A stretch of 64,000 bases of DNA, from assembly GCF_000024985.1 (NCBI RefSeq), contig NC_013524.1:310001-374000 (forward strand), read 5' to 3'. Of the stretch, positions 5,209 to 47,303 are shown in pieces (positions within the stretch are counted from its first letter, which is position 1; every line of letters begins with the position of its first letter). Position numbers and translations under genes: made by a program. This stretch comes from Sphaerobacter thermophilus DSM 20745 (GTDB lineage Bacteria > Chloroflexota > Chloroflexia > Thermomicrobiales > Thermomicrobiaceae). The notes under the pieces are model-generated. The model searched no databases and was not told where the DNA came from. It saw only the letters and a program-made list of their open reading frames with translations.

Positions 5209-5276
5209 TGAGCCACGGTGAGACCTTCGAGGAGGTCCTGCTCGACTGGTAGGTGGTCCACCGCGAGGGAGGGCCC

Positions 5277-5729
5277 ATGCGTGACGTGGCCGACGGCGGA
5301 TCGTCGCATGACCTGACCAACGGGAAGGGCGGGCTGCCCGATGTCCCCGGCCTCGATGGCGCGGCGGCGCGGGAGTTCGCTGCCTGGACGGACTTTCTGG
5401 ATGGGCTGCGTCAGGCCCAGTCGGAGCCGCCCCTCCCCTCGATCTCGTCCGCGCTGGGGCCGGCGGACTTGGAACCGATCGCCCGCTGGTACGTCGTGCT
5501 GCGCGGCGTGCGCCGGCTGACCGAGGTGGCCGGGCTGCGGGAACACCTGGAGGGGCTGCCCCCGTGCCTTTCGGTGCGCGTGGTCGATCTCTCCTCACAG
5601 GAGGTGCGCATCATGGTCGCAGCGACCCCGCAGACCGGGAAGGCGGGGCTTGAGGAGCAGGTGCAGGTGGCACTACGCGGGGTCCAGTCGGCGGCGACGT
5701 TCGAGGTCGTTCCGGCCACGCCGCAGTAG
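5277..5729 (+). CDS. Hypothetical protein co-transcribed with a DUF4388 protein
   Basis: The 150-aa protein starts at the ATG at 5277, four bases after GAGGGAGGG; upstream in-frame ATGs lack a site. The first 50 residues are polar and low-complexity. The C-terminal 75 residues look like a compact alternating beta/alpha domain (LSVRVVDLSSQEVRIMVA, then EEQVQVALRGV), but I cannot name the family. Only 10 bases separate its stop from the next ATG, so it is almost certainly in one operon with the DUF4388 gene. Its job should be read together with that gene, perhaps as a small partner in signalling. Confidence 0.6.
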   Translation: MRDVADGGSSHDLTNGKGGLPDVPGLDGAAAREFAAWTDFLDGLRQAQSEPPLPSISSALGPADLEPIARWYVVLRGVRRLTEVAGLREHLEGLPPCLSVRVVDLSSQEVRIMVAATPQTGKAGLEEQVQVALRGVQSAATFEVVPATPQ

Positions 5730-5739
5730 AAGGGCTGAC

Positions 5740-6468
5740 ATGGGCTTCTACGGCGACCTCCAGGATCTCCCCCTCCAGGACATCCTCTATGTCCTGTCGA
5801 GCCACGGAAAGTCAGGGCGTCTCACTCTGAGCATCCCGACCGACGAGATCACCCTGGTGTTCCACCGAGGCCGGGTGGCATCGGTCACCACCAGCGACGA
5901 GAGTCTGCGCATCGGCCAGCTCTTGATCGATCAGGGATACATCACGGAGGAGCACGTCGAGCAGGCGCTGGCGCTGCAAGCGGTGGAGGACGGTCGTACC
6001 CGGCTTGGGGATATGCTCGTCGAACTCGGGTTCGTGAATCACCAGCAGATCTGGAAGGCTGTCGCAGCCCAGTTCGAAGCGTCGCTCTTCCGCATCTTGA
6101 TCCAGCCGGGCGGCACGTTCGTCTTCACCCCGGAGGAGGTGGAGATCGATGAGGCCTTCATGGAGGAGATCCGGATCGAGCCGATCGTGCTGAACGCGAT
6201 GCGGATGGCCGACGAGTGGCTCGCGACCCACGCGAAGCAGGACACCGTCAGCCTCACCGATGTGCCCTTCGTACCGGCGATTCTGGACCGGTTGGAGCGC
6301 CCCGAGTTGGACGTCCTCCTCGCGATCCTGAACGGCGCCTCGAACATGTACGACCTTGCGGCCAAGACCGGGCGCTCACAGGAAGAGCTGGACGAGGTGC
6401 TGGATCGGCTGATCACCCTCGGCTTGATTGAGCGCGCGCAGCACCCAGGCGCAGTCCCCGCCACCTAG
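5740..6468 (+). CDS. DUF4388 (PatA-like N-terminal) domain protein
   Basis: The 242-aa protein opens with the DUF4388 pattern: GDLQDLPLQDILYVLSSHGKSG, then LTL, FHRGRV and a second helical repeat (GQLLIDQGYITEEHVEQAL, then LGDMLVELGFV). The C-terminal 70 residues form a winged-helix-like segment (LLAILNGASNMYDLAAKTG, then LDEVLDRLITLGLIER). DUF4388 is found at the N-terminus of PatA-type response regulators and in gliding- or pili-associated proteins; its biochemical function is not settled. The start is the ATG at 5740, which fits the domain boundary. It has a larger paralogue at 22281-23420. Confidence 0.8.
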   Translation: MGFYGDLQDLPLQDILYVLSSHGKSGRLTLSIPTDEITLVFHRGRVASVTTSDESLRIGQLLIDQGYITEEHVEQALALQAVEDGRTRLGDMLVELGFVNHQQIWKAVAAQFEASLFRILIQPGGTFVFTPEEVEIDEAFMEEIRIEPIVLNAMRMADEWLATHAKQDTVSLTDVPFVPAILDRLERPELDVLLAILNGASNMYDLAAKTGRSQEELDEVLDRLITLGLIERAQHPGAVPAT

Positions 6469-6521: not shown

Positions 6522-7220
6522 TCAGGCGCGGCGGCGGGAACCGGTGTCGGTCAGCACGACGCCGAGGATGCGCGCACCGACGCGGTCGAGCGATTCCCGG
6601 GCACGCTGGGCCGCAGCGCGCTTCGTCTTCCCCGATCGGACCAGCAGGAGCACGGCGTCCACACGCGGCGCCACGGCCAGCGCGTCGCCGAAGTCGGGCA
6701 GCGGAGGCGTGTTGACCACGACGAACGCGGTCTCGTCGCGCAGGCGGGCCAGAAGCCGGGCGAAGAGGTCGCTGCCGAGGAGGTCCGCCGGCAGCGTGCC
6801 GCCGGACTTGCCGGCGTGGCCGGCCGGGAGCAGGCTCAGCCCCTCGATACCGCTCTCAACCAGAGGGAGTGTCGCCGCGGGGTCGCCGGAGGCGAGCCAT
6901 TCGGCGAGGCCCGTGTTGTTCGACAACCGGAAGAGCTCATGCGTCCGGGGCCGCCGGAAGTCGGCGTCCACCAGCACGACACTGTCGCCACCGAGCGCCA
7001 GGGCGGCGGCGAGGTTGGCTGCCACCTCGGCGTGCTGGCCGCCGGTTCCGGCGTCTGCGATCGCGACGGAACGGACCGCGGGCTCGACCCGCGCGAACTT
7101 CACCGTCGAGCGGAGAGATCGGTAGGCTTCAGCGACCGCCGACGCGGGGTTGGAGACGATGGCGAGGTCGATCCCACCCACGCGCGTCTGGGATTCGGCC
7201 CGCTCCTGAATCTGGCTCAC
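6522..7220 (-). CDS. BY-kinase/CpsD-like ATPase with degenerate nucleotide-binding motifs
   Basis: The 232-aa protein has the CpsD/CapB fold order: SAVAEAYRSLRS, the P-loop region, Walker A' (VVLVDADFRRP, residues 81-91) and the Walker B region. At the Walker A position the sequence is AGTGGQHAE (about 57-65), so the Gly-Lys-Ser/Thr core is missing. The Walker B aspartate of D-T/A-PP is Asn (NTPP). There is no C-terminal tyrosine cluster. It follows two Wzz-type genes in the same operon, where an active bacterial tyrosine kinase would normally regulate polymer length. This copy may be a regulatory pseudokinase. The GTG at 7220 is preceded by AAAGGAGAA; an ATG at 7259 has no site. Confidence 0.75.
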   Translation of the reverse strand: MSQIQERAESQTRVGGIDLAIVSNPASAVAEAYRSLRSTVKFARVEPAVRSVAIADAGTGGQHAEVAANLAAALALGGDSVVLVDADFRRPRTHELFRLSNNTGLAEWLASGDPAATLPLVESGIEGLSLLPAGHAGKSGGTLPADLLGSDLFARLLARLRDETAFVVVNTPPLPDFGDALAVAPRVDAVLLLVRSGKTKRAAAQRARESLDRVGARILGVVLTDTGSRRRA

Positions 7221-7266
7221 CCGCGGTTCTCCTTTCTCAGGGCTCTCAGGGTGCGTCATCGGCGCG

Positions 7267-7950
7267 TCAGGCCCGTGGGATACCGGCCACCGTCGGCAGT
7301 GCGAGGTAGCGATCGACGTCTTCTTCGGTGCGGAGCGTGTCATCGAGATACTCCGCAGCGAAGGTCAGCAGCACGCCGACCACCAGGCCGAGGAGCAGGG
7401 CTGCCGCCGTGTTCAGCTTGACCCGCGGGCCGATCGGCGTGGACGGCGGGCCCGGCGTGTCGAGTTGCTCGACGCGCACGGTGTTGCGCTTCACCCCCTC
7501 CGTCCCGGTGGGATATTCGGTGATGAGCTGGGCGTTCTCTTCCGCAGCACGGGCGACGAACGCTTCGGCCAGCGCGTTGACGACCGCGGCGGCCCGCTCC
7601 GGGTCGGTGTCGGTCTTGACCACCTGAATCACATTGCTGTCCGAATTGCGGCCGACCGCGAGGCCGCTCATCGCCTCCCCGACGTCGATGTCAAGGTTGG
7701 CGCGCTGAAGCGCTTCGGCGACGAAGGGGGCGTTGTTGATCAAGTCCCCGTAGGAGGCGAGCCTGTTCTTTGCGTAGAGGTCCATCCAGTAATCCGGCGG
7801 CTCGGCGATGGCCATCAGACGGGCGCTGACCTGGTACGTCTTTGGCTGGGAGATGCTGTAGGCATACGCCACGCCGCCTGCCACGACGGCCGCGAGCAGG
7901 ACCAGCCACCAGCGGCGTAGCACGATCAGCGCATACTCCTCCGGTCTCAC
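7267..7950 (-). CDS. Wzz-type polysaccharide chain-length determinant protein
   Basis: The 227-aa protein has two membrane segments (about residues 13-31 and 182-202) flanking an extracytoplasmic region, ending in the cytoplasmic motif YLDDTLRTEEDVDRYLALPTVAGIP typical of Wzz/GumC-type co-polymerases. It probably sets chain length of an exported polysaccharide together with the BY-kinase-like protein downstream. It starts with GTG at 7950, and that start overlaps the TGA of the upstream Wzz gene (GTGA), so the two are translationally coupled. At 227 aa it is short for the family and lacks a long coiled coil. Confidence 0.8.
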   Translation of the reverse strand: MRPEEYALIVLRRWWLVLLAAVVAGGVAYAYSISQPKTYQVSARLMAIAEPPDYWMDLYAKNRLASYGDLINNAPFVAEALQRANLDIDVGEAMSGLAVGRNSDSNVIQVVKTDTDPERAAAVVNALAEAFVARAAEENAQLITEYPTGTEGVKRNTVRVEQLDTPGPPSTPIGPRVKLNTAAALLLGLVVGVLLTFAAEYLDDTLRTEEDVDRYLALPTVAGIPRA

Positions 7951-8651
7951 CGTCCCCCCTTCCCTTCCGGGATGGTGCCGATCACCGGGAGATCCAGTGC
8001 GGCTGACACCGTCTCGGGCGAGCGCAGGGTGTCGTCCAGGTAGTCGACGAGGAAGGCAATCAGGACGCCCGCAAACAGACCAATCACCACCTGGAGCACC
8101 AGGATCAACTGCTGCCGCTGGCTGTTGGCGGCAGCGTGCTCCGGCACCTGCACTGGTGTGACAGAGACGATATCAGACGCGTTCGGAAAATTGAAGTAGC
8201 TGCCTGCCTTCTCCTCCAGCGTTGACGCCGCTGCCTGGGCAATAGCCACGGCCCGGTTTGGATCGCCGGACGTGATCCGGATCGTCAGGATGCGGTTGAT
8301 GCGCTCGGATGCGAGCGACCCCTGGATCTCGCCGGGGGATACCTCAATCCCCTCGCTCGCCATCAGCATGCGCGAGACGTCCGCGGCGAAGACATTGCCC
8401 CGGACGACCTCCACCAGGTCGTCGATCAGGTACTCGCTGGCGAGGTAGGCGTAGTACTGGTCGTAGCGGAAAAAGTCTTCCTCGGGTGCCGGAGCGTCGG
8501 GCGTGCGGGCGACCGCCATCCGCAGGGTGGCGGTGTAGGTGGTTGTCGTCTGGGACGCCTGGTAGATCACTCCGGCCAGCACGAGCAACGGCACCACCAC
8601 GACGAAGTACCAGCGGCGGAGGAGGATGGCCAGATACTCTTTCAGCTCCAT
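7947..8651 (-). CDS. Wzz-type polysaccharide chain-length determinant protein, second copy
   Basis: The 234-aa paralogue of the next gene has a membrane segment at about 14-30, a periplasmic-type domain and a second membrane segment near 190-208. These are followed by YLDDTLRSPETVSAALDLPVIGTIP. Two short Wzz proteins in tandem could form a mixed oligomer. GGAGG lies 8 bases before the ATG at 8651. The start overlaps the end of the glycosyltransferase gene by 10 bases and the end overlaps the next gene by 4, so the operon is tightly packed. Confidence 0.8.
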   Translation of the reverse strand: MELKEYLAILLRRWYFVVVVPLLVLAGVIYQASQTTTTYTATLRMAVARTPDAPAPEEDFFRYDQYYAYLASEYLIDDLVEVVRGNVFAADVSRMLMASEGIEVSPGEIQGSLASERINRILTIRITSGDPNRAVAIAQAAASTLEEKAGSYFNFPNASDIVSVTPVQVPEHAAANSQRQQLILVLQVVIGLFAGVLIAFLVDYLDDTLRSPETVSAALDLPVIGTIPEGKGGR

Positions 8652-9790
8652 GTCGCTACCTCCGTCCGGCGCGCCGCGGGCGGTGCGTGCCGCGCGGCCA
8701 GTCGCTCGGCAACAAAGTCGGCGATCTCACGAAGGAAACGCTCGCGGCTGAACCGGGCCGCGTGCGCAACGATCTGGTCGGTCGAGAAGGTCATCCGTTG
8801 GAAGCGCTGGACGGCGTCGATCAGTGCCTCGGGCGTCTGGGGCGAGAACAGAACGCCTGTCACGCCGTCGATCACGGTGTCGAGCGCGCCGCCGGCCGCC
8901 AGTGCGATGGCTGGTCGGCCCGCGGCCTGGACCTCCACCTGAGCGATGCCAAAATCGTCCTCAGCCGGGAAGATCGCGGCCTGGCAGCGCGCGTAGAGCC
9001 GGTACTTCTCCTCGTCGGAGACCGTGCCAAGGAACTCGATCGTCGGGCCGGCAATCCGCTCGAGGTCGGGCCGCGCCCGCCCGTCACCGACGATCTTCAG
9101 CGGCAGCCCGAGCGCGTTGAACGCCTCAATCACGATATCAAACCGCTTGTACGGCACGAGGCGCGAGACGAGCAGAAAGTAGTCGCCCACTTCGGACGGG
9201 GCGACCGGCGCTGCACCGTCGGTGTCCACCGGCGGATAGATCACCGTCGCATCGCGCCCCCAGAAGTCCGCGATGCGCTTGGCCACAGTCGTTGAGTTGG
9301 CGATGAAAAAGTCAACCGTGCGGCTCGTCGCGACGTCCCAGCGGCGCAGCAGCGCCAGGAATGGCGGAAGCACCCGGCGCACGGCGCCCGCGAGGCGCTC
9401 GCGCTCGGCGTAGCGATGAAAATCCCAGGCGAAGCGCATCGGGCTGTGGCAGTAGCAGACGTGGATCGCACCGGGCGGGGTCGGGACTCCCTTAGCCCAG
9501 GCGCTGCTCGAGCTGAGGATCAGGTCGAACCCGTCGAGCCGCATCCGCCGAAAGGCCAGCGGGTAGAAGGGGAGATACGGCTGATGGTGCCGGTGCACCG
9601 CCGGGAGCCGCTGCATGAAGGACGTGCGGATATCCCAGTCGCGGTAGTGCGAGGGCATCAGATCCGGCGCGTAGATTGACGTAAAGACCGGTGCATCGGG
9701 GTAGAGGTCGTGGAACGCTTCGAGCACCCGCTCGGCGCCGCCGTACTGGTTGAGGTAGTCGTGGACCAGAGCTACACGCTCTGCCGGCAT
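8642..9790 (-). CDS. GT4-family glycosyltransferase (WbaZ-like)
   Basis: The 382-aa protein begins ALVHDYLNQYGGAERVLEAF, the usual GT4 opening with the GGAE motif. It carries the CYCHSPMRF block and the C-terminal nucleotide-sugar-binding domain (SRLVPYKRFDIVIEAF, GDGRARPDLE, then FPAEDDFGIAQVEVQAAGRP with the E-x7-E type motif). It is expected to transfer a hexose, often mannose, to a lipid-linked glycan on the cytoplasmic face. The ATG at 9790 is chosen from family length; the open frame extends about 110 codons further upstream without family similarity. It is the first gene of the minus-strand export operon. Confidence 0.85.
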   Translation of the reverse strand: MPAERVALVHDYLNQYGGAERVLEAFHDLYPDAPVFTSIYAPDLMPSHYRDWDIRTSFMQRLPAVHRHHQPYLPFYPLAFRRMRLDGFDLILSSSSAWAKGVPTPPGAIHVCYCHSPMRFAWDFHRYAERERLAGAVRRVLPPFLALLRRWDVATSRTVDFFIANSTTVAKRIADFWGRDATVIYPPVDTDGAAPVAPSEVGDYFLLVSRLVPYKRFDIVIEAFNALGLPLKIVGDGRARPDLERIAGPTIEFLGTVSDEEKYRLYARCQAAIFPAEDDFGIAQVEVQAAGRPAIALAAGGALDTVIDGVTGVLFSPQTPEALIDAVQRFQRMTFSTDQIVAHAARFSRERFLREIADFVAERLAARHAPPAARRTEVATWS

Positions 9791-9931
9791 GCGCGCACGC
9801 ACCCACCCGCGAGCCCCGTCGGAGGGCCGGTTGCCGCCATCGGGGTAAGGATACACGGTTCCATAGGCGGTGCCAGCGGTCCGCCCGGTGACCCAGAGTG
9901 GAGCGGTGGCTGGGCGATGCCAGACCGTTGT

Positions 9932-9960
9932 TTGCCGGTAACCGATCAAAGTCCTATGAT
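9932..9960 (+). promoter_or_regulatory. Sigma-70-type promoter for the CGNR gene
   Basis: TTGCCG (9932-9937), a 17-base spacer and TATGAT (9955-9960) form a good vegetative promoter about 70 bases before the ATG at 10032. The region between 9790 and 10032 is divergent and must also hold the promoter of the minus-strand glycan operon, which I could not place. Confidence 0.55.
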
Positions 9961-10031
9961 TGGTTAGATATGGTAAGGCGTGGCGCTCGGCCCAATACAT
10001 CAGCGCCGAGACTGGAGGGACCGAAGGGGCG

Positions 10032-10661
10032 ATGCGGCCGACAAACACTCGTGAAAATGGGCGGTTCAAGCTGGTCGGTGGCGTACTCTGCCTCGACTTC
10101 GCAAACACGCGTGCCAGCCGCGACACCGACAACCCGATCGAATACCTCCACTCCTACGCCGACCTCGTCGCCTGGGCCGAGCGGGTGGGGCTGGTCGACG
10201 ACGGCAAGCACCTTCTGGAGGTCGCACGCCAGCGGCCTGCCGAAGCGGAGGCGGTGCTGACCCGTGCCCGGGTGCTGCGCGAGGCGATCTACGGCATCTT
10301 CTCCCACGTCTCCGCCGGCAAGCCGGTCCCTTCGGCCGATCTGGACACGCTGAACCTGGCCGTAACGGACGCCCTGAGCCGGGCGCGGGTGGTGGCGCGG
10401 CCCGATGGCTTCGCCTGGGGCTGGGCTGCTGGGCCGGACGACCTGGACCGCGTCCTCTGGCCGGTCGCGCGGTCGGCGGCCGAGCTGCTGACATCCGATG
10501 CGCTCTCCCGGGTGCGGGAGTGCGCGGGCGATCACTGCGGCTGGCTCTTCCTCGACACGAGTCGTAACCGGAGTCGCCGCTGGTGTGACATGCGCGACTG
10601 CGGCAACCGCGCCAAGGTGCGCCGCCACTACCAGCGGCACCGCAGAACGCGGCCGGACTAG
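10032..10661 (+). CDS. CGNR zinc-finger / ABATE-domain protein, probable regulator
   Basis: The 209-aa protein has the N-terminal ABATE region (LCLDFANTRA, then LHSYADLVAWAERVGL). Its C-terminal zinc finger reads CAGDHCGWLFLDTSRN, then WCDMRDCGNRAKVRRHYQR, with two C-x4-C-type pairs and the family-naming CGNR. Such proteins are thought to bind DNA and act as stress-related regulators, but targets are generally unknown. The ATG at 10032 follows AAGGGG; a TTG at 9960 is less likely because it overlaps the -10 box of the promoter. It is monocistronic. Confidence 0.85.
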   Translation: MRPTNTRENGRFKLVGGVLCLDFANTRASRDTDNPIEYLHSYADLVAWAERVGLVDDGKHLLEVARQRPAEAEAVLTRARVLREAIYGIFSHVSAGKPVPSADLDTLNLAVTDALSRARVVARPDGFAWGWAAGPDDLDRVLWPVARSAAELLTSDALSRVRECAGDHCGWLFLDTSRNRSRRWCDMRDCGNRAKVRRHYQRHRRTRPD

Positions 10662-33429: not shown

Positions 33430-33606
33430 AGGAGGCATTGATCTTGCTGTTCGCAATGCAGTACGAATTGCACCCCTTCGTCCCCCTCACTCGTCTCGCA
33501 CCCCGCATCCCAGCACATTGCGCCGGTTGAGGGTGGTTGGCAGTCGGAGGGGAGGGCAACGCGTGCAACCAGGATGGGATCGGGTTGGGATTCGGTGGGG
33601 AGGACT

Positions 33607-35280
33607 ATGACGTCGAGCATTCTTGCGCGTGGGCTCCGCTGGTGGTGGATCGTGCTGGTTGGTGCCCTTGCTGCCGCTGCGTTGGCCTACCTCGTCAGCG
33701 CGGCAATGACGCCGATCTATCAGGCACAGCTCACCCTACTAATTGAGGAGAGTCAGGGTACCGGGGCAGGCGACTACAACGACATCCTGGCTGCCGAGCG
33801 CCGTACCCGTACCTTCAGCCGCCTCGTGGCACAGCGCCCTGTGCTCGAGGAGACGATCCGCCGCCTGTCGCTCCGGATGACTCCTGAGGAGCTGATGGCG
33901 GTGATCGAGGTGACCCCGATCCGCGACACGCAACTCGTGACGCTGGCGGTGTCGGACCCGAGCCCCGCGCGGGCGGCGGCGATCGCCAACACGGTTGCCG
34001 AGGTCTTCATCGAACAGACGCAGCAGCGGCAGGCTGAGATAGCCGGGCCGGGCGCCGATCAGGTGCAGCAGAACATCGAGGCGATCCAGCGCCAGATCGA
34101 CGAGGCCAATGCGCGTATCGCCGAGCTGCAGGCACAGCCAAACGCGGGTGATCCGGCGGTGCAGGAGGAGATCCGGAACCTGCAAGCGCAGCTCGCGCAG
34201 TTCACCGAGACCCACAGCGCCCTGATCGAGGCGCAGCAGCGCATCCTCGCCTCGGCTGCGGCGAGTGGCCCGCGGATTCGCGTGACCGCCGACGCGATCC
34301 CGCCCGATGCGCCGATTCGCCCGCGCACCACACTGAACACGGCGCTCGGTGGGGTACTCGGCACGCTCCTCGGTCTGGGCGTAGTGCTGGTCCTCGTCTA
34401 CCTCGACGATACGGTCAAGGACGCCGAGGATGTGCGGCGCCTGACCGGCCGCCCGGCGCTCGGCTGGATTCCCCGGTTCCGCGGGCCGAGCGGCATCGCG
34501 CTGGTGACCGCGCCGCGCTCGCCTGTCTCTGAGGGGTACCGGAGCCTGCGCACGAACTTGCAGTTCGCGACCCTGGGGCAGGAGGTACGCTCGATCCTCG
34601 TGACCAGTGCCCGCCCTGGGGACGGCAAGACCACCACGGTGGTCAACCTCGGTGCCGTGCTCGCGCAGGGCGGCCAGCAAGTCATCGTTGTCGACGCGGA
34701 CCTGCGCCGCCCGCGCCTCCACGCAGCGCTCGGGAACGTGCCCAACCGCTTCGGGCTGACGAACCTGCTCCTGGCCGACGACGAGGTCGATCTGGCAGCG
34801 CTGCTCCAGGAAACCGATGTGCCGGGGCTCCGGGTTCTGACGACGGGGCCGCTGCCGCCGAACCCGACCGACGTGCTCGACTCGCCGCGGATGCATGAGC
34901 TCATCGCCGGGTTGGAGCGGATGGCGGACATGGTGCTGGTGGACGCCCCACCGGTGCCGGTGAGCGATGCGCTGGTACTGGCCGGGCTGGTGGACCGCGT
35001 GCTTCTGGTCGCCTACAGCGGCCGTACCCGTTCGGCAGAGCTGGCGCGGGCGGTCGAGGAGCTGACGCGAGCGGGTACGCCGCTTTTGGGCGTCCTGCTC
35101 AACCGGGCTGAGGCCGGTGCCGGTGGGTACGACCTCTATTACGCGGAGTACTACAGCGCCGAGCCGGACACTGGCGACCAAGACGGCAGCGGCCCCGGCG
35201 CGTCGACGCGGCTGTCGCAGCGGCTAGGTACTCTGGTGTCGGGGCGTGCCGTCGACGCCACGCAGCGTGGCAACCAGTGA
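33607..35280 (+). CDS. Wzz/BY-kinase fusion: polysaccharide co-polymerase with tyrosine kinase domain
   Basis: The 557-aa protein has a Wzz domain between two membrane segments (about 14-34 and 246-266) with a coiled-coil stretch at 150-215. A cytoplasmic BY-kinase domain follows, with intact Walker A (PGDGKTT, Lys341), Walker A' (VIVVDADLRRP, about 359-369) and Walker B-like VLVDAPP. The C-terminus has a tyrosine cluster (YDLYYAEYYS), the usual autophosphorylation tail. It should control chain length and export of the polymer made by the 39-51 kb locus. The ATG at 33607 follows GGGGAGG. In contrast to the split, degenerate kinase at 6522, this copy looks active. Confidence 0.92.
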   Translation: MTSSILARGLRWWWIVLVGALAAAALAYLVSAAMTPIYQAQLTLLIEESQGTGAGDYNDILAAERRTRTFSRLVAQRPVLEETIRRLSLRMTPEELMAVIEVTPIRDTQLVTLAVSDPSPARAAAIANTVAEVFIEQTQQRQAEIAGPGADQVQQNIEAIQRQIDEANARIAELQAQPNAGDPAVQEEIRNLQAQLAQFTETHSALIEAQQRILASAAASGPRIRVTADAIPPDAPIRPRTTLNTALGGVLGTLLGLGVVLVLVYLDDTVKDAEDVRRLTGRPALGWIPRFRGPSGIALVTAPRSPVSEGYRSLRTNLQFATLGQEVRSILVTSARPGDGKTTTVVNLGAVLAQGGQQVIVVDADLRRPRLHAALGNVPNRFGLTNLLLADDEVDLAALLQETDVPGLRVLTTGPLPPNPTDVLDSPRMHELIAGLERMADMVLVDAPPVPVSDALVLAGLVDRVLLVAYSGRTRSAELARAVEELTRAGTPLLGVLLNRAEAGAGGYDLYYAEYYSAEPDTGDQDGSGPGASTRLSQRLGTLVSGRAVDATQRGNQ

Positions 35281-39075: not shown

Positions 39076-39792
39076 CTAGGCGACGCCGTCCTGGCGAAGC
39101 ACGGCGATCGCGGTTTGCCAGAGGATCCGCAGGTCGAGCCAGAGCGAGCGGTTCTTGACGTACTCCAGGTCGAGCGCCAGCGTCTCGGTGAAGGTGAGCT
39201 CATCCCGTCCACTGACCTTGGCCGGCGAGGTCACGCCTGGCTTGATGCTCAGGATCGTCTCGGCGGCATCGCCGTAGTAGGGGATCATCTCCGGGATCTC
39301 CGGTCGTGGGCCAACCAGGCTCATGTCACCCTTCAGCACGTTCCAGAGGTTTGGGAGCTCATCGATGCTGGTGCGTCGCAGGAAGCGCCCGACGCGCGTC
39401 ACCCGGGGGTCGTCCTTGGGGTGGAAGACGAGCGTGGGCAACTCTTCTGGCGAGTACTTGTAGGCATACAGCTCGGGAAAGCGCTCGCGCGCATTCACGT
39501 ACATCCCTCGGAACTTGTAGAGAGTAAAGGGGACGCCGTGCTGGCCGACGCGGACCTGCCGGAAGATGGCCGGGCCAGGCGATTCCAGGCGGACCGCGAT
39601 GGCCGCAGCGGCCATGATCGGGCTCGTGAGGACGAGCCCGACGGTCGCTCCGACGATGTCGATGCCCCGCTTCAGGATTTCGTAGACCGGATGGCCGCCA
39701 GCCCACCACCGGACGCCTTCGCTCGTCTTCGGCGGTGCGGCTGCCATCCGGGCCTGTTCCCCCGGTTCGATGCTCCGGGTGTCACCGCGCAT
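39076..39792 (-). CDS. Short-form initiating sugar-1-phosphate transferase (bacterial sugar transferase family)
   Basis: The 238-aa protein has one membrane segment ([22 protein letters not shown]) followed by the catalytic domain: [57 protein letters not shown] and [18 protein letters not shown]. It should place the first sugar phosphate of the repeat unit on undecaprenyl phosphate. It is the last gene of the long minus-strand cluster and its start overlaps the aminotransferase stop by 11 bases. AAGGTGG precedes the ATG. In loci with this arrangement the transferred sugar is often an amino sugar. Confidence 0.9.
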
Positions 39793-40993
39793 AGTGCGTC
39801 ACCACCTTCCGTACGGCGGCGATCACGTCCTGGACATCCTGATCGGTCAGCTTGGCCGAAAGCGGCAGCGACACGGTCCGGCTGCCGATCTCCTCGGCGT
39901 TCGGGAAGTCGCCGGGCCGGTAGCCGTAGCGCTTCCGGTAATAGGCGTGCAGGTGGACTGGCGTGAAGTGGATGCCGCTTCCGATGTTCTCGGCGCGGAG
40001 CGCTTCGATGAATTGGGAGCGGTCGATGGTGAGCCGCTCGGGCCGGAGCAGGATCGTGTAGAGGTGCCCGGCATGCCGCTCCTCGGGTCGGGGCGGGGCG
40101 GGCGTCTCGACCGCCGGCAGATCGGCGAAGCCGACATCGTAAGCCTTCCAGTGGCGTCGCCGGATGGTGAGGTTGGCTTCGATGCGCCGGAGTTGATGGA
40201 GCCCGAGCGAGGACTGGAGGTCGGTCAGGTTGTACTTGTAACCCGGCTCGACCGCCTCATAGGGGGTGAAGCCGCTGGCCGAGTAGCGCTTCCAGGCGTC
40301 CTTGCTGATGCCGTGGAGGCGCAGGATGCGGAGCCGCTCGGCTGCCGCGTCGTCGTTCGTCGTGATCATCCCGCCCTCGGCGGTCGTCAGATTCTTGGTG
40401 GCGTAGAAGCTGAAGACGGTGAACTGGCTGATGCTGCCGATCTTCTTGCCGCGCCAGGCCGCCTCAACCGCGTGAGCCGCGTCCTCGATGACGGTCAGGC
40501 CGTGGCGATCGGCGATGTCGCTTATCGCGTCCATGTCGCAGGGGCGCCCGGCCATGTGCACCGGCATGATCGCCCGTGTCCGTGGCGTGATGGCGGCTTC
40601 GATCCGGGCCGGGTCGATGTTCTGCGTCTCCCGATCGACGTCGACGAAGACCGGGCGCGCACCCACGTGCTCGACCACGTTGGCGGTCGCGGCGAAGGTC
40701 AGGGGCGTGGTGATGACCTCATCGCCCGGGCCGACACCGCTGGCGATCAGCGCCAGGTGGAGCCCCGCCGTGCAGGACCCGACCGAGATGCCGTGCTTGG
40801 CGCGGACGTACTGGGCGAACTCCTCCTCGAAGCGGAGGCTCTTAGGGCCGAACCCGATCCAGCCCGAGCGCAGGGTATCCACAACCTCCTGGATCTCTTC
40901 CTCGCCGATCAGCGGCGCGCCGAACACCAGGAACTGGCTTCGAACCGGCTGACCGCCCTCCACGGCGGGTAGGGATTCTCGTGTTACGGTCAT
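39782..40993 (-). CDS. DegT/DnrJ/EryC1/StrS-family sugar aminotransferase
   Basis: The 403-aa PLP enzyme shows GSCTAGLHLALIASGVGPGDEV, the conserved VIEDAAHA and the PLP lysine in FSFYATKNLTTAEGGM. These aminotransferases convert keto-sugar nucleotides to amino sugars, in the cytoplasm. The ATG at 40993 follows GGAGG at 8 bases. It is encoded next to the initiating transferase, so its amino sugar may be the first residue of the polymer. It differs clearly from the other DegT protein at 42449, so two distinct amino sugars are likely. Confidence 0.9.
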   Translation of the reverse strand: MTVTRESLPAVEGGQPVRSQFLVFGAPLIGEEEIQEVVDTLRSGWIGFGPKSLRFEEEFAQYVRAKHGISVGSCTAGLHLALIASGVGPGDEVITTPLTFAATANVVEHVGARPVFVDVDRETQNIDPARIEAAITPRTRAIMPVHMAGRPCDMDAISDIADRHGLTVIEDAAHAVEAAWRGKKIGSISQFTVFSFYATKNLTTAEGGMITTNDDAAAERLRILRLHGISKDAWKRYSASGFTPYEAVEPGYKYNLTDLQSSLGLHQLRRIEANLTIRRRHWKAYDVGFADLPAVETPAPPRPEERHAGHLYTILLRPERLTIDRSQFIEALRAENIGSGIHFTPVHLHAYYRKRYGYRPGDFPNAEEIGSRTVSLPLSAKLTDQDVQDVIAAVRKVVTHYAR

Positions 40994-41068
40994 GGTCGAC
41001 CTCCGTCCTCTCACGTGCCGCTGTGGTGCGGCGGTGCCAGGGGGCCCGGATCTCCGGGCGCGCGAGCG

Positions 41069-42424
41069 TCAATGAACTCGCCTCGATACGCCTGCTGTGG
41101 GTTCCGTCCTCTCTAGCGGCTCGGTGAGCCTGCCTGCGTCGGCCCGCGCCCACCCGCTCGGCGCGGCGCGACCCGCGTGGGGCTCCGGAGCCGCCTCGAC
41201 CGCCTGGCGCAGGACGGTCTCGAAGGCCCGCGATTGCCGCTGGCGCGATACGTGAGCGGCGACATATCGCTGGCCGTTTTCCCCGAGCTGCCGCGCCAGC
41301 GCGGGACGGGCGCGCAGCGCTCGGATGGCCTCCGCCAGTGCGGCCGGATCTTCGGGCGGGACACAGAGTCCGGCGCAGGCGTGCTCGACGACATCGGCCG
41401 TCTCGCCCTCGGCGGCGACGATCGCCGGGCGCCCCGCCGCCATGACGTCGAAGACCTTCGACGACAGCGCGAAGTCGCGCAGCCAGTCGGATCGCCGGAG
41501 CGTGACCAGGCAGGCGTCGGCCCGCCGGTACAGCGCGGGGAGCAGCCTGCGGGGCACGGGGTCGAGGAACGTGATGTTGGCCAGCCCCCGCTCCCGAGCC
41601 TTGGCCACGAGGCGCGGTTTCTCCCCACCGTCGCCGACCAGGAGGAGATGCACGTCCGGCTCGTCGGCCAGGAGCTCGGCGGTGTCAAGGACGGTGTCGA
41701 GCGCGTGCGGCAGGCCGTGCGTGCCCGCGTACATCACCACGAACGCGTCCGGGGCGATGCTCTCCAGGCCGGGGATGGTCTCACCCTCCGGTATCGGTGC
41801 CTGGAAGAGCTCCACATCCGCGCCGTAGTAGATGAGGTGTAGCCGCTCGGGTGGAATTCCCCGCTCCCGCAGGGTGGCTTCGATGCCGCGGGTGAACGGG
41901 ACCACCTGCGCCGCGTGGTTCAGTGCGAAGGACGCCAGCGCCCGGGTCACGCGGATGGCGATCGGGTTGCGCATGACGCCGTAGGCCACGGCCTGCTCTG
42001 GGATCAAGTCGCCTGCGTTCAGCACGTAGGGCACGCCCCACCAGCGGCCGAGGATGGCGGCGGTGACGCACAGGAAGAGCGGGTGCATGTCGACCACGAT
42101 GACGTCGGGCCGCCAGGGCAGCCGTGTCGCGGCGGGCAGTGCGCTCAGTGCGAACGACAGGTGGCTCAGGGAGCGGCGCAGGAACCCCCGGTTCGGCGCG
42201 GCGTAGAGCCAGGACCGTACCACCGGGATGCCTTCCATCTCCTCCCGCATGAGGACGCGACCACGGTACCCGGCCGGGATCTCCCCGCTTGGGTAGTTCG
42301 GGAAGGTCGTCAGGACCGCGACCGCATGGCCCATCTGCTGCAGATCCCTGGCGGTCTCCAGGATCCGGGTCTGCGGCGGGCCGATCTCCGGCGGGAAGAA
42401 GTGAGTCAGGAACAGGACTCGCAC
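41069..42424 (-). CDS. GT4-family glycosyltransferase (WbuB-like)
   Basis: The 451-aa protein begins RVLFLTHFFPPEIGPPQTRILE, the usual opening of WbuB-type GT4 enzymes. The donor-binding half has YAGTHGLPHALDTVLDTAELL, LLLVGDGGEKPRLVAKA and FDVMAAGRPAIVAAEGETADVVEHACAGLCVPPEDP (only the short blocks are quoted as evidence). It should add a sugar, typically an N-acetylated amino sugar, to the lipid-linked repeat. The start is GTG at 42424 with GAGGGGGACGA before it. The C-terminal 40 residues are unstructured. Confidence 0.88.
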   Translation of the reverse strand: MRVLFLTHFFPPEIGPPQTRILETARDLQQMGHAVAVLTTFPNYPSGEIPAGYRGRVLMREEMEGIPVVRSWLYAAPNRGFLRRSLSHLSFALSALPAATRLPWRPDVIVVDMHPLFLCVTAAILGRWWGVPYVLNAGDLIPEQAVAYGVMRNPIAIRVTRALASFALNHAAQVVPFTRGIEATLRERGIPPERLHLIYYGADVELFQAPIPEGETIPGLESIAPDAFVVMYAGTHGLPHALDTVLDTAELLADEPDVHLLLVGDGGEKPRLVAKARERGLANITFLDPVPRRLLPALYRRADACLVTLRRSDWLRDFALSSKVFDVMAAGRPAIVAAEGETADVVEHACAGLCVPPEDPAALAEAIRALRARPALARQLGENGQRYVAAHVSRQRQSRAFETVLRQAVEAAPEPHAGRAAPSGWARADAGRLTEPLERTEPTAGVSRRVH

Positions 42425-42448
42425 ACTCGTCCCCCTCGCAGTGTTCCG

Positions 42449-43585
42449 TCACGCCTCGCCCAGGACGATCGACCGGACGCTGGCGCCGATGCGCTCCAGA
42501 TCGTCCTCCGTCAACGCCGGGTGGACCGGCAGCGACAGGACCGACTCCGCGAGCCGCTCGCTCACCGGCAGGCTGGTCGCCCCGTGCTCCGGGGCGAAGA
42601 CCGGCTGCCGGTGCAGTGGGCGCGGGTAGTGGACGGCCGACTGAATCCCGCGCGCCGCGAGCGCCGCTTGCAGGTCGTCGCGGGTGATCCCGGCCGCTGC
42701 AGCGTCGATCTGGATCGTGTACTGGTGGTAGGAATGCTCGACGCCCGGCAGGCTGGTAGGCGTCGTGATGCCCGGCAGGCCGGCGAGCAGCGCATCGAGC
42801 CGCCGGGCGTTGGCGCGCCGCTGCTCCAGCCAGCCCGGCAGTTGGTCGAGCTGCACTAAGCCGATCGCCGCCTGCACGTCGGTCAGGCGGTAGTTCAGGC
42901 CCAGCAGCGTGTGCTCGTACTTCCGCTCCTGGCCGTGGCTCCGGAGCAGGCGGAGGCGTTCCGCGAGGGCGTCGTCGTTGGTCGTGATCATGCCGCCCTC
43001 GCCGGTCGTCATGTTCTTAGTCGGGTAGAACGAGTAGCAGACCATGTCGGCGAAGCTGCCGACGTCTCGCCCGTTGACACTGGTCCCGTGGGCCTGTGCC
43101 GCGTCCCAGACGATACGTAGGCCATGCTCGCGCGCCAGCCGCTGGATGCCGTCCACATCGCAGGCGCCGCCGTAGAGGTGGACCGGCGCGATGGCGCGGG
43201 TCCGCGGCGTCAGGCGGCGCGCCGCATCTTCGAGATCGAGCGTGGCGGTGGCAGGATCGACATCGCAGAAGATCGGGCGCCCGCCGGCGAACACCACCGT
43301 GCTGGCGGTGGCGATGAAGGTGAAGGCCGGGACCAGCACCTCATCTCCCGGCTCCAGGAGCGCCAGCCAGGCGAGATGCAGCGCCGCCGTGCCGGAGCTG
43401 ACCGCCACGGCGTGGCGTGCTCCCACCATCGCCGCGAAGCGCTCTTCCAACTCGCGGGTGACCTTTCCCTGCCGCACGTTGCCCGAGCGCAGCACGGCCA
43501 CAGCGGCATCGATCTCTCCCGAGTCGAACCGTACCTGGGCGATCGGGATGACCTTCTCCTCCTGCGGGCTCTGCTTAGTTACCAC
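42449..43585 (-). CDS. DegT-family aminotransferase (WbpE-like)
   Basis: The 378-aa PLP enzyme has VSSGTAALHLAWLALLEPGDEV, WDAAQAHG and the PLP lysine in SFYPTKNMTTGEGGM. It opens with IPIAQVRFDSGEIDAAVAVLRSG. Its gene overlaps the end of the Gfo/Idh/MocA gene by 11 bases, and an LbH acyltransferase is two genes further up. This trio matches the oxidation, transamination and acetylation steps of WbpB/WbpE/WbpD in making UDP-2,3-diacetamido-uronic acids. The GTG at 43585 follows GGGAG. Confidence 0.88.
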   Translation of the reverse strand: MVTKQSPQEEKVIPIAQVRFDSGEIDAAVAVLRSGNVRQGKVTRELEERFAAMVGARHAVAVSSGTAALHLAWLALLEPGDEVLVPAFTFIATASTVVFAGGRPIFCDVDPATATLDLEDAARRLTPRTRAIAPVHLYGGACDVDGIQRLAREHGLRIVWDAAQAHGTSVNGRDVGSFADMVCYSFYPTKNMTTGEGGMITTNDDALAERLRLLRSHGQERKYEHTLLGLNYRLTDVQAAIGLVQLDQLPGWLEQRRANARRLDALLAGLPGITTPTSLPGVEHSYHQYTIQIDAAAAGITRDDLQAALAARGIQSAVHYPRPLHRQPVFAPEHGATSLPVSERLAESVLSLPVHPALTEDDLERIGASVRSIVLGEA

Positions 43586-44615
43586 CGACCGGGCTCCCTT
43601 CACGGATGCGTTCAATCACCGCCATGAGCTGCAGCGACTCGGACACGCCGTTCATGGGCGTGCGGTCGCTCCGCAGCGCCTCCAGGAAGTGGCCGAGTTC
43701 GCGCTCGAACAGGTTCACGGGCGGGAACTGCTGCGTGTTGTTGCCGAGGTTGAAGACCCCGCGCGGCTCTTTGCAGTAGACGATGGTGGGCAGGTAGTGC
43801 AGGATGCTGGTGAAGAGCGAGCCGTTGTCGCCCTGGATCTCGACGTAGTTCATGTAAGACGGCGTCACCAGGTCGCTCTCGCAGACCACCTCCACGTCCC
43901 CGACCCGGAGCCGGGCAAGCACGTAGTCCTCGGCGTTGACCCGCACTCGCTCCGAGCCGATCTGCCGCTCCGGGAGGAGCGTGGAGCGCCGGAGCAGGTC
44001 GACCTCATCGGGGCACCCGAGGAGCCACTGGATCAGGTCGAGGTTGTGGACCATCATCTCCAGGGTCGCGCCGCCGCCTGACTCGGTCGTGTGCTTCCAG
44101 GCGCGGTGGCTGCCTCGCCCGCCCAGGCGGAAGATCGCGAAGTAGGGCCGGCCGATGATCCCGTCTTCGAGCACCTGCTTGGCGAACTGGAACGCGGGGT
44201 GGAAGCGGTACAGATAGCCGACCATGACGAGGCGGCCCGACTCGCGCTGCGCGGCTGCGATCGCTTCGGCCTCCTCGTACGTCCGGCACAGCGGCTTCTC
44301 ACAGAAGACGTGCTTGCCGCGCTCCAGCGCGGCCAGGACCACGCTCGCGTGGGCGGCGGTCGGCACGCAGACGTCGATTGCGTCGAGCTCCGGGTCGTCG
44401 AGCAGATCGTCTGGTGAGCCGCGCCATGCGACGCGCTGTGCCTCGGCCAGCCGCTGGGCGGCTGCCGGGTCCTGGTCGGCCACCACGACGGTCGCGCCGA
44501 GTTTCCGGTAGGCATCGACATGCCGCTCGGCGATACGCCCACAGCCGATGACCCCGACCCTTGCGGTAGCCTGGCCGTTCTGTGCCGCCGTGGTGGCGTG
44601 CGTCTCAAGCGTCAT
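43575..44615 (-). CDS. Gfo/Idh/MocA-family sugar-nucleotide dehydrogenase (WbpB-like)
   Basis: The 346-aa protein has the N-terminal Rossmann motif (VGVIGCGRIAERHVDAY), the family EKP motif (KHVFCEKPLCRTYEEA) and a C-terminal alpha/beta domain with GGGATLEMMVHNLDLIQWLLG. It should oxidise a sugar or sugar nucleotide with NAD(P). Its immediate neighbour is a DegT aminotransferase, the usual acceptor of the 3-keto product. GGGAAGTGC precedes the ATG at 44615. Confidence 0.88.
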   Translation of the reverse strand: MTLETHATTAAQNGQATARVGVIGCGRIAERHVDAYRKLGATVVVADQDPAAAQRLAEAQRVAWRGSPDDLLDDPELDAIDVCVPTAAHASVVLAALERGKHVFCEKPLCRTYEEAEAIAAAQRESGRLVMVGYLYRFHPAFQFAKQVLEDGIIGRPYFAIFRLGGRGSHRAWKHTTESGGGATLEMMVHNLDLIQWLLGCPDEVDLLRRSTLLPERQIGSERVRVNAEDYVLARLRVGDVEVVCESDLVTPSYMNYVEIQGDNGSLFTSILHYLPTIVYCKEPRGVFNLGNNTQQFPPVNLFERELGHFLEALRSDRTPMNGVSESLQLMAVIERIREGSPVGGN

Positions 44616-44650
44616 GCACTTCCCTTCCCCTCCATCGATACGAACCCGCG

Positions 44651-45400
44651 TTAGTGGGCCGGTGCAGCCGGTGGTCTCCCGTCGAGCTCGCGCACATACA
44701 TCCAGCCGGTTCCTTCCGGCCCGCGCGTCGCGCGGACCGGCCGCCAGCCGAGCCGCTCGTAGAGCCGGCGTGCCGCCGTGTTCTCATCGCGTACCCCGAG
44801 CTTGATGACCCGGACACCCCGGCGGGCCATCTCCCCGGTGAAGGCGCGCACCAATAGCTCGCCGATCCCCTGGCGCTGATGCGCCGGATCCACGCCGATC
44901 GTCATCAGACTGGCCGGGGGCAGCACGCCCGTGCTGTTGCGGGTGATCGGCGCGGTACGGCACGCGCCGCGGGTGAGTCCGGCAACCCGCTGCAGCCGCG
45001 ATAGGAGCGCCAGGGCGAGTTGTGGTTCGCGAAGGACGCGGGCCGCGAGTGCCGGCGCCGCCCATACCAGCCGGCGCCGGAGGAAAACGCGCCAGTGGCG
45101 CGTGACGTCCTCGCTGCCGCACACGAAGCCGACGACCGCGCCGGTCGGGCGGTGGAGGCAGACGAATCCGCAACCCTGTGGGTAGTCGAGGAACGCTCGG
45201 AAGTAGTGCCGGAGCACCCGCTCGCCGAGGCTCGCGAGGAAGGAGTCCTGGAAGCTCGCGATGTGGACGCGCGCGACATCGCCCACGACGCTGGGAGCGA
45301 GCGGCGCAATCATGTACAGCCCAGAGTCGACCCCGGACGTCTCGGCGCGTTCATCCGCCGGGCGTGAACGTGGCTGGCTCAGTCGGGACGCCGCTGCCAT
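44651..45400 (-). CDS. GNAT-family acetyltransferase
   Basis: The 249-aa protein has a GNAT core: FVCGSEDV, MTIGVDPAHQRQGIGELLVRAF (the acetyl-CoA loop Q-x-x-G-I-G) and VIKLGVRDENTAARRLYERLGW. In the glycan cluster it may N- or O-acetylate a sugar precursor, but protein or small-molecule targets are not excluded. The start is the ATG at 45400, with GAGGGGTGACGG upstream, which leaves only 5 bases after the stop of the acyltransferase gene. Confidence 0.85.
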   Translation of the reverse strand: MAAASRLSQPRSRPADERAETSGVDSGLYMIAPLAPSVVGDVARVHIASFQDSFLASLGERVLRHYFRAFLDYPQGCGFVCLHRPTGAVVGFVCGSEDVTRHWRVFLRRRLVWAAPALAARVLREPQLALALLSRLQRVAGLTRGACRTAPITRNSTGVLPPASLMTIGVDPAHQRQGIGELLVRAFTGEMARRGVRVIKLGVRDENTAARRLYERLGWRPVRATRGPEGTGWMYVRELDGRPPAAPAH

Positions 45401-45405
45401 CTCCG

Positions 45406-46023
45406 TCACCCCTCTAGCAACCATGACCGCGCCCGGTTCTCGTGGCGGAGTCGCTCCGGCAGGGGCATCACCCGGCCCGGCACCCCGATCACCAGGCTCC
45501 ACGGCGGGACGTCCTTGGTCACGACGGCGCCCGCCGCGACCATCGACCCGTAGCCGACCCGCACGCCCGGCAGCACCACCGCGCGGGCACCGATGGTGAC
45601 GCTGTCCTCGATGATCGGCCCCGTCGGTTCGTACTCATGACGCAAGCGCAGCGGGTAGCGGTCGTTCGTGAAGACCGCGCCCGGCCCGACGAAGACGTAG
45701 TTGCCGATCGACGTGTGGGTCGGGATGTAGACCTGACTCTCGAGCTTGACATAGCTGCCAATCTCGACGTGACCATCGATGGTGGTCCCGGTGCCGACGG
45801 TCACATGGTCGCCGATGGTCGTGTGCTCGCGGATCAGGACGTGGTGGCCGCAGCGGAAGTGCGAACCGATGATGACGTCCCCGTAGATGACCGCGAAGCT
45901 GCGCACGATGCCGTCGTCGCCGATGATCGTGGGCGCGCAGCCCGGCCGGTAGGGGACGCTCACCTCGGCGTTCGGGTCGATGATCGTCCCGTCTCCGATC
46001 CGCATCTCCAGCACCTGTGCCAC
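45406..46023 (-). CDS. Left-handed beta-helix acyltransferase (WbpD-like)
   Basis: The 205-aa protein is built of hexapeptide repeats (I-G-D/E-x-x-x pattern from about residue 40 to 165: [43 protein letters not shown]). It ends with [22 protein letters not shown], the acetyl-CoA-site motif of LbH sugar N-acetyltransferases. The GTG at 46023 follows GAAGGGAG. With the dehydrogenase and aminotransferase downstream it completes a likely acetamido-sugar module. Confidence 0.88.
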
Positions 46024-46070
46024 GGTGTGTCTCCCTTCATGTGGGTGCGGCCGCACCCGGTAATCGCTGG

Positions 46071-47303
46071 CTAGTCACCTGGCAGCGCGCCCGACTCCGC
46101 GCGCTCCACTCCGGCCGGGCCGGATCGCGGCGCGTCCGGCGCCAACTGCGCGAAGACGCCGACGTACCCGGGCTCTAGAACCTCCCAGTGGTGGCGCTCC
46201 AGGAAGGCGCGCCGGCCGTTCGCGGAAAACCGGGCGGCGAGAGACCGGTCGCGGGCCAGCCGCGTGATCGCGGCGGCGATATCGGCCGGGTCGCGCGGGT
46301 CGACGACCAGGCCGTACTCCCCGTCGCGGACGAAGCGGCTCATGTTCGGCAGGTTGGAGCAGATGACCGGGAGGCCCCAGGCCATGTACTCGAACAGCTT
46401 GACCGGGTGCGTGACGTACTCGGTGTACGGCGTGGGGTGGTAGAGGAGCGAACCGCAGTCGGCCTCCGCCAGGTAGCGGCGTACCTCCTCGGGGCCGACA
46501 CGCCCCACCAGCCGCACGCTATCCTGGACGCCGAGTGCGGCGATGGCTTCCCGGCACTCCCGCACGAACGGCTCGTCGTCCACCAGCCCGAGGAAGGTGG
46601 CCTGCACGGGGATCCCGGCGTCCCGCAGCAGCGCGACCGCCTGGATCGTCTCGACCACCGCCACTCGCCGCCGGGTGAAGCCCGTGTAGAGCAGGTGGAA
46701 CGGCCGGTCGGCGGGCCGCTCCTCGCGGGGGGGCAGCTCGGCCGGTGCGAACGTGAGCCGTGGGTAGTTGGTCAGCAGGCTCGCCGGGCGGCCAAACCGC
46801 TCGAAGCGCTCCAGGCATCCACGGTCCACTGCGAAGGCGTGGTCGACGAACAGGCGGATGAGCAGCGCTTCGAGCAGCCAGAAGACGGCGTAGATCAGGC
46901 GCGTCGCGACCGGCCCGCGCCGGCTGTTGACCGCGATGGCGAGCGGGTAGTGCTCGCGCGCGTCGTACACCAGCCGCGCACGAGTTAGCAGCTTGACGAT
47001 GGCGCCGACCAGCAGGCTCTGCAGCTCCATGGCCTGGTAGACATCGGCGCGCTCCCGGAGCGCCAGTCGGAGCAGCCGCGGAAGCGCCTGCAGCTTCTCC
47101 CGACGCGTCCCCCAGCCCATCCGCATCAGGGACACGACGCGGATCCCCAGCGGGTTGGTGGTCGGGTCCGCCGGGTCCTCGCTCGCCAGGCACGGTGCGA
47201 TGATGGTGACGGCGTGCCCGGCCCGTTGGAGGCTGGCTGCCTCCTTCCCGTAGAGTGGCTGGCTGAACGCCGAGCGTCCGACCGTCAGGACACAGACCCG
47301 CAC
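46071..47303 (-). CDS. GT4-like glycosyltransferase
   Basis: The 410-aa protein opens with [23 protein letters not shown]. It has a lipid-proximal stretch ([17 protein letters not shown]) in the N-terminal half and a GT4 donor domain ([24 protein letters not shown], then [23 protein letters not shown]). It is expected to extend the lipid-linked repeat. The GTG at 47303 begins immediately after the stop of the polymerase gene. Acceptor and donor cannot be told from sequence; being near sqdB it is one candidate to use UDP-sulfoquinovose. Confidence 0.82.

Follow-up and report, generated by a model that had tools for sequence, protein, structure and literature searches.

Results

A gene in Sphaerobacter thermophilus DSM 20745 encodes a protein with a BY-kinase fold that has lost its catalytic residues, and this catalytically dead domain is probably a stand-alone cytoplasmic ring subunit, acting as a scaffold for the neighbouring Wzz2 co-polymerase. 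The reading rests on five observations: the loss of the P-loop Lys is fixed, the gene shows purifying selection, its gene cassette is conserved, the ring interface is kept, and Wzz2 is fused to the pseudokinase in sister genera. The gene lies in a 64,000-nucleotide stretch of DNA (the window), to which all coordinates below refer.

Sequence and Predicted Fold of the Window Protein

The gene and its motifs were located as follows.

6522..7220, minus strand: BY pseudokinase of 232 aa with a GTG start (TIGR01007; PDB match CapA1B2; start and Shine–Dalgarno sequence conserved in three species)
7229..7235, minus strand: Shine–Dalgarno sequence AAAGGAG of the pseudokinase, identical in G000, G007, and G008
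7110..7130, minus strand: intact EX2RX2R ring-interface motif, EAYRSLR (from the sequence; role of the motif from PMC3795738)
7026..7052, minus strand: degenerate Walker A, AGTGGQHAE, with a His codon (7032–7034) at the Lys position (read from the translation)
6951..6980, minus strand: intact Walker A', VVLVDADFRR (read from the translation)
6702..6725, minus strand: degenerate Walker B, FVVVNTPP, with Asp replaced by Asn, N170 (read from the translation)

The mechanical listing of open reading frames starts this gene at ATG 7343. GTG 7220 is the better start, because AAAGGAG lies 8 nt upstream of it and because two other Sphaerobacter genomes, G007 and G008, share the conserved block AAAGGAG...GTGAGCCAG; the ATG codons at 7343 and 7259 are conserved in neither and were rejected. 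The extent of 6522–7220 given in an earlier note on this DNA was thus borne out. The protein matched TIGR01007 (polysaccharide biosynthesis tyrosine autokinase) with an E-value of 3.9e-32 and 111.4 bits, just above the cut-off of 108.05 bits, so that automatic annotation would call it a tyrosine autokinase, which is probably wrong. A PDB sequence search returned CapA1B2 at 1.2e-27, and the structure model (pLDDT 89.6) gave a TM score of 0.87 to 4jmp and 2ved (CapAB) and a range of 0.86–0.89 against the CapAB and Wzc kinase domains. By profile, PDB sequence, and predicted fold, the product of 6522–7220 is therefore a BY-kinase fold. Its contig is the smaller of two (1,252,731 vs 2,741,033 bases), and its closest named relatives are found in Sphaerobacter MAGs, at 76–90% protein identity.

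The earlier note had described a Walker A position without Lys, an Asn in place of the Walker B Asp, a missing Tyr tail, and an intact Walker A', and all four were recovered in the translation. In the P-loop, H63 occupies the Lys position and is followed by A64 and E65; Walker A' with the next residue reads VVLVDADFRRP; and the C-terminus, VVLTDTGSRRRA, ends in TDTGSRRRA with no Tyr cluster. Of the hallmarks of a BY-kinase, the protein has the fold, Walker A', and EX2RX2R, and lacks the Walker A Lys and Ser/Thr, the Walker B Asp, and the C-terminal Tyr cluster. A BY-kinase fold without catalytic motifs or a Tyr tail, conserved in orthologues, is the EcpK/HfsB type of protein, here with Walker A' kept.

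Loss of the P-Loop Lys Is Fixed in the Order

Within the family, an orthologue was present in 20 of 21 genomes, and none of the 20 carried the P-loop Lys; the genome without an orthologue (G002) is 84% complete. Orthologues in four further families of the order also lacked Lys, with P-loops such as MNADRA, GVGDRA, RATSSD, and RDASEP. In total, the five families read gave 29 cassette proteins without Lys out of 29, with S, R, H, T, A, V, Q, or P at this position. Orthologues with a normal GKS/T motif, which would point to a recent mutation, were thus not found anywhere among the 29. At the Walker B position, G008 and G001 carry Asp rather than Asn, so of the two losses only that of Lys is fixed. 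The NG86 dN/dS of the pseudokinase gene was 0.106 against G007 and 0.193 against G008, within the range of 0.06–0.34 obtained for Wzz2, Wzz1, and GT4 in the same comparisons; judged by these ratios, the gene is under purifying selection.

The Pseudokinase Belongs to a Conserved GT4-Wzz1-Wzz2-BYK Cassette

Three genes precede the pseudokinase gene in its cassette.

8642..10132, minus strand: open reading frame of a GT4-type glycosyltransferase, the first cassette gene (PF13692, 7.6e-21; conserved position)
7947..8651, minus strand: Wzz1, a second PCP/Wzz-like protein (PF02706, 5e-04, below the cut-off; TIGR01006, 1.4e-11; conserved position)
7267..7950, minus strand: Wzz2, PCP/Wzz-like, with two TM segments and a juxtamembrane tail (PF02706, 2e-05, just below the cut-off; TIGR01006, 7.6e-14)

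The true GT4 start is probably further inside its open reading frame. Wzz1 (234 aa) and Wzz2 (227 aa) gave Wzz/PCP matches alone and have no kinase domain of their own. Wzz2 has the bipartite PCP-2b layout, with two TM segments by hydropathy, a TIGR01006 match below the cut-off, and an adjoining kinase gene, and its short cytoplasmic tail is DDTLRTEEDVDRYLALPTVAGIPRA. The two Wzz-like genes lie directly upstream of the pseudokinase gene, in keeping with the operon described in the earlier note, and their order is conserved: nearly all members of the family have GT4, Wzz1, Wzz2, and pseudokinase in this order, as do families f2 and f3. Family f4 has Wzz1-Wzz2-BYK, and in family f5 the pseudokinase was found beside a Wzz1-like gene only. 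Elsewhere in the class, the remaining orders have this four-gene arrangement too, and so do other classes of the phylum wherever the retrieved sequence was long enough to show it; we take Chloroflexus, Roseiflexus, and Herpetosiphon to be among the cassette bearers of those other orders. The cassette at 6.5–10.1 kb contains no wzx or wzy of its own, and the repeats around it are weak pairs only. In family f1 genomes, a DUF4388 gene (5253–6468, plus strand, in the window) is convergent to the cassette; some genus g3 genomes have two copies, and a small gene of unknown function lies beside it in most genera and is absent from g5.

Together, the orthologues and the conserved cassette support the notion that the Wzz operon is preserved and its pseudokinase fixed. 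Because the whole order keeps, in the same small operon, a gene without the residues required for kinase chemistry, a structural part rather than an enzyme is suggested. Bacterial tyrosine kinases of this type take part in setting how long surface sugar chains become. In the accepted model of PCP-2 systems, cycles of tyrosine phosphorylation are needed to assemble and disassemble the octamer. The scaffold proposed here would instead dock on the juxtamembrane tail of Wzz2 and support the Wzz2 oligomer through protein contacts, and assembly would be set by binding or stoichiometry, with no phosphorylation cycle. Formation of a ring, binding to Wzz2, and an effect on chain length are what we infer for this protein.

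Catalytic Positions Drift and the Ring Interface Is Kept

A comparison of 141 cassette kinases, 102 with the P-loop Lys and 39 without, separated the catalytic positions from the ring interface. Among the Lys-bearing proteins, the Walker B Asp was present in 99 and a tail Tyr in 88, and the E, R, and R of EX2RX2R in 102, 101, and 99, respectively. Among the Lys-less proteins, the Walker B Asp remained in 9 and a tail Tyr in 7, and the three EX2RX2R residues in 34, 38, and 37. The column entropies agreed, with drift at the catalytic positions and conservation at the interface. These counts suggest that proteins without the Lys tend to lack the Walker B Asp and the tail Tyr as well, and that EX2RX2R stays. 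Family f2 is intermediate, with no Lys and one or two tail Tyr residues remaining. EX2RX2R forms half of the CapB octamer interface (PMC3795738), and Wzc K540M forms octamers (PMC8285477).

Relatives outside the order mostly have GKS/T and a C-terminal Tyr tail, and most cassette kinases there are apparently active; L200, from another order, has DEGKST and the tail GEYGYYA. In 21 further cassette proteins, the Lys is kept and the preceding Gly is replaced. Within the group L194–L196, L183–L184, and L188–L189, the cassette kinase of seven Chloroflexus-type genomes has PEKS for GKS and no Tyr tail, and EDKS together with a retained Tyr occurs in Herpetosiphon-type and f10 genomes; both kinds are possibly impaired kinases.

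The kept Walker A' leaves nucleotide binding possible, which counts against a pure scaffold. The protein might act as a nucleotide sensor, using Walker A' and a non-canonical P-loop to bind ATP/ADP and changing shape with no phosphoryl transfer. Consistent with this, the two Walker A' Asp residues are kept in 33 and 32 of the 39 Lys-less proteins, and ADP is held in the Lys-to-Met structures of CapB and Wzc (2ved, 9exo). However, the P-loop is highly variable, with an insertion in genus g5 and shortening in families f3 and f5, and Gly and Ser/Thr are gone besides Lys; furthermore, EcpK functions without Walker A' as well (PMC12004946). A sensor role is thus unlikely in our view.

The Lys Was Lost Repeatedly

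The number of losses was examined with trees. In the tree of the kinase domain alone, the best topology needed several changes of Lys state; a single clade of all Lys-less proteins was not rejected (AU p = 0.162), nor was a clade of Thermomicrobiales with f31/f82 (p = 0.238). The concatenated Wzz1, Wzz2, and BYK tree, built without the P-loop and Walker B columns and without the Lys-less members of f45, f54, and f34, required three changes over the bootstrap range and rejected a single origin (one clade, AU p = 4e-81). The changes are read as losses because outgroup BY-kinases carry Lys. The trees point to the Lys having been lost independently three times or more, with Thermomicrobiales, family f31, and family f82 as the separate lineages.

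Wzz2 Is Fused to the Pseudokinase in Three Sister Genera

In the sister genera g4, g5, and g6, a single reading frame encodes both Wzz2 and the pseudokinase, and Wzz1 is separate, which makes Wzz2 the likely partner. The juxtamembrane segment of Wzz2 is kept in both split and fused forms. In neither active nor dead cassettes could the adenine-stacking Phe of the CapA tail be recognised in the Wzz2 tail. An AF2 model of the natural fusion reached a pTM of only 0.55, so a particular docking mode is unsupported.

The linker of the fused genes has an in-frame ATG where the pseudokinase would start in 12 of 12 cases (L106–L109 and L113–L120). In a Shine–Dalgarno scan of 11 of the fused genes, this was the only such ATG common to all; nine have GGAGG or AGGAG ahead of it, and the other two have AAGG, which is weaker. 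The linker is predicted to be disordered and varies in length, which favours reading the conserved Met as a start codon over reading it as a structural residue. This arrangement suggests two products from one gene, and the conserved internal Shine–Dalgarno sequence and ATG make a free pseudokinase beside the fusion plausible. Extending this, one vertically inherited Wzz cassette might have repeatedly shed its kinase chemistry with the ring interface kept, and in g4–g6 a single gene might yield fusion and free pseudokinase, the ratio of tethered to free protein replacing the phosphorylation cycle as the control of assembly; we regard this fuller account as speculative and quite doubtful.

No BY-kinase besides the pseudokinase was found in the g4–g6 genomes, several of which are 96–99% complete and others partial; the next TIGR01007 match had at most 58 bits, against the cut-off of 108. 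Genomes with no detected active BY-kinase offer a clean setting for asking whether PCP-2 function needs tyrosine phosphorylation. We also asked whether a tyrosine phosphatase is missing from these genomes, which is not so: the CpsB/CapC-type phosphatase PF19567 is present in most of them. This would be odd if tyrosine phosphorylation plays no part, and it counts against the scaffold. None of the five g3 genomes, all with an intact fusion, has PF19567 (G002–G020 set).

The Separate Wzz–BY-Kinase Fusion Is a Paralogue

Two further features of the window concern other kinase and polysaccharide genes.

33574..35280, plus strand: Wzz–BY-kinase fusion, a paralogue outside the cassette (GDGKTT, DADLRR, and VLVDAPP intact; Tyr-rich tail)
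39076–50089, minus strand: canonical Wzx/Wzy-type polysaccharide cluster (sugar transferase (PGT), two DegT-type aminotransferases, glycosyltransferases, weak Wzy_C, flippase-like protein)

This fusion lies near the canonical cluster (PGT at 39076, weak Wzy_C at 47304, Wzx-like at 48635). The earlier note had taken it, placed at 33607, for the active copy of the pseudokinase; this does not hold, because the trees assign it to a different clade, one of fusions. The actual counterparts, apparently active, are the same-cassette kinases of other orders, such as L200. The genome has two more fusions, one of which (L004, G000:C1:1261697-1262278) has the Walker A GEGRST, with Lys replaced by Arg. Elsewhere, the L148 fusion (G027) has GDGTTT, with Lys replaced by Thr, and L026, the G007 orthologue of the fusion at 33574, has DGD in place of DAD in Walker A'.

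These fusions bear on another explanation, in which the dead subunit is built into the rings of another, active BY-kinase that the cell possesses, for example the fusion at 33574, and tunes it as a eukaryotic pseudokinase would. Other BY-kinase fusions exist in G000, G007, G008, G001, and the g3 genomes, the common EX2RX2R could permit mixed rings, and a similar idea was proposed for CapB1/CapB2 (PMC3795738). However, the g4–g6 genomes keep the pseudokinase where no active BY-kinase was found, which speaks against modulation of an active kinase as its general role; moreover, the canonical cluster and its fusion are at least 23 kb from the cassette, and this fusion carries its own Wzz domain. 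We therefore judge such mixed rings to be improbable. A decaying pseudogene, a recent mutation, or a sequencing error, for which the absent catalytic residues themselves are the sole support, deserves hardly any credence and was rejected, because the loss is fixed over five families in independently assembled genomes, dN/dS is 0.1–0.2, and the Shine–Dalgarno sequence, start, and synteny are conserved. The scaffold for Wzz2 remains the preferred reading.

Comparison with Known Systems

In the earlier note, a pseudokinase regulating Wzz would depart from the accepted BY-kinase cycle. Such regulation is conjectural, and a phosphorylation-independent pairing of a BY pseudokinase with a PCP-2 protein is not in itself new: EcpK/EpsV and HfsB/HfsA have been described, together with further split and fused cases (PMC12004946). 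Similar to EcpK of Myxococcus xanthus, the window protein is a stand-alone fold without Walker A, Walker B, or a Tyr tail and would work with a Wzz/PCP-2 protein devoid of a kinase domain. Walker A' and EX2RX2R are kept in the window protein, whereas Walker A' and a number of N-terminal elements are missing from EcpK; ecpK is not adjacent to epsV (PMC12004946), whereas the window gene directly follows two Wzz genes. It also differs from EcpK in belonging to Chloroflexota and in having apparently active orthologues in the same cassette. HfsB/HfsA of the Caulobacter crescentus holdfast likewise pairs a stand-alone BY pseudokinase with a PCP-2 protein, but with one PCP rather than two, and no active same-locus orthologue is described (PMC12004946).

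CapA/CapB of Staphylococcus aureus is the best sequence and fold match (3bfv, 2ved, 4jmp), and CapB1/CapB2 with CapA, a PCP-2b plus BY-kinase system, shares the arrangement of a Wzz-type protein with a separate kinase. CapB1 showed no autophosphorylation in vitro (PMC3795738). However, Walker A and the Tyr cluster, both lost from the window protein, are still present in the CapB proteins. In active CapB the Tyr tail forms half of the octamer interface, and its absence from the window protein counts against the scaffold. A dead kinase domain also occurs in fused PCP-2a proteins (SMc01795, VV1_2305, and others; PMC12004946), which join it to Wzz in one chain, as in g4–g6; they were matched on domain layout. 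The g4–g6 genes have an in-frame Shine–Dalgarno sequence and ATG at the kinase start.

A literature search, with most subscription journals outside its reach, found nothing on exopolysaccharide and tyrosine kinase in Sphaerobacter. As far as that search extends, what appears to be new is the occurrence in Chloroflexota, the cassette with two Wzz genes, a single cassette with active as well as dead orthologues, the recurrent loss, and the internal start of the fused genes. Since one syntenic cassette has apparently active kinases in many lineages and dead ones in at least three, it allows one machine to be studied both with its chemistry and without it.
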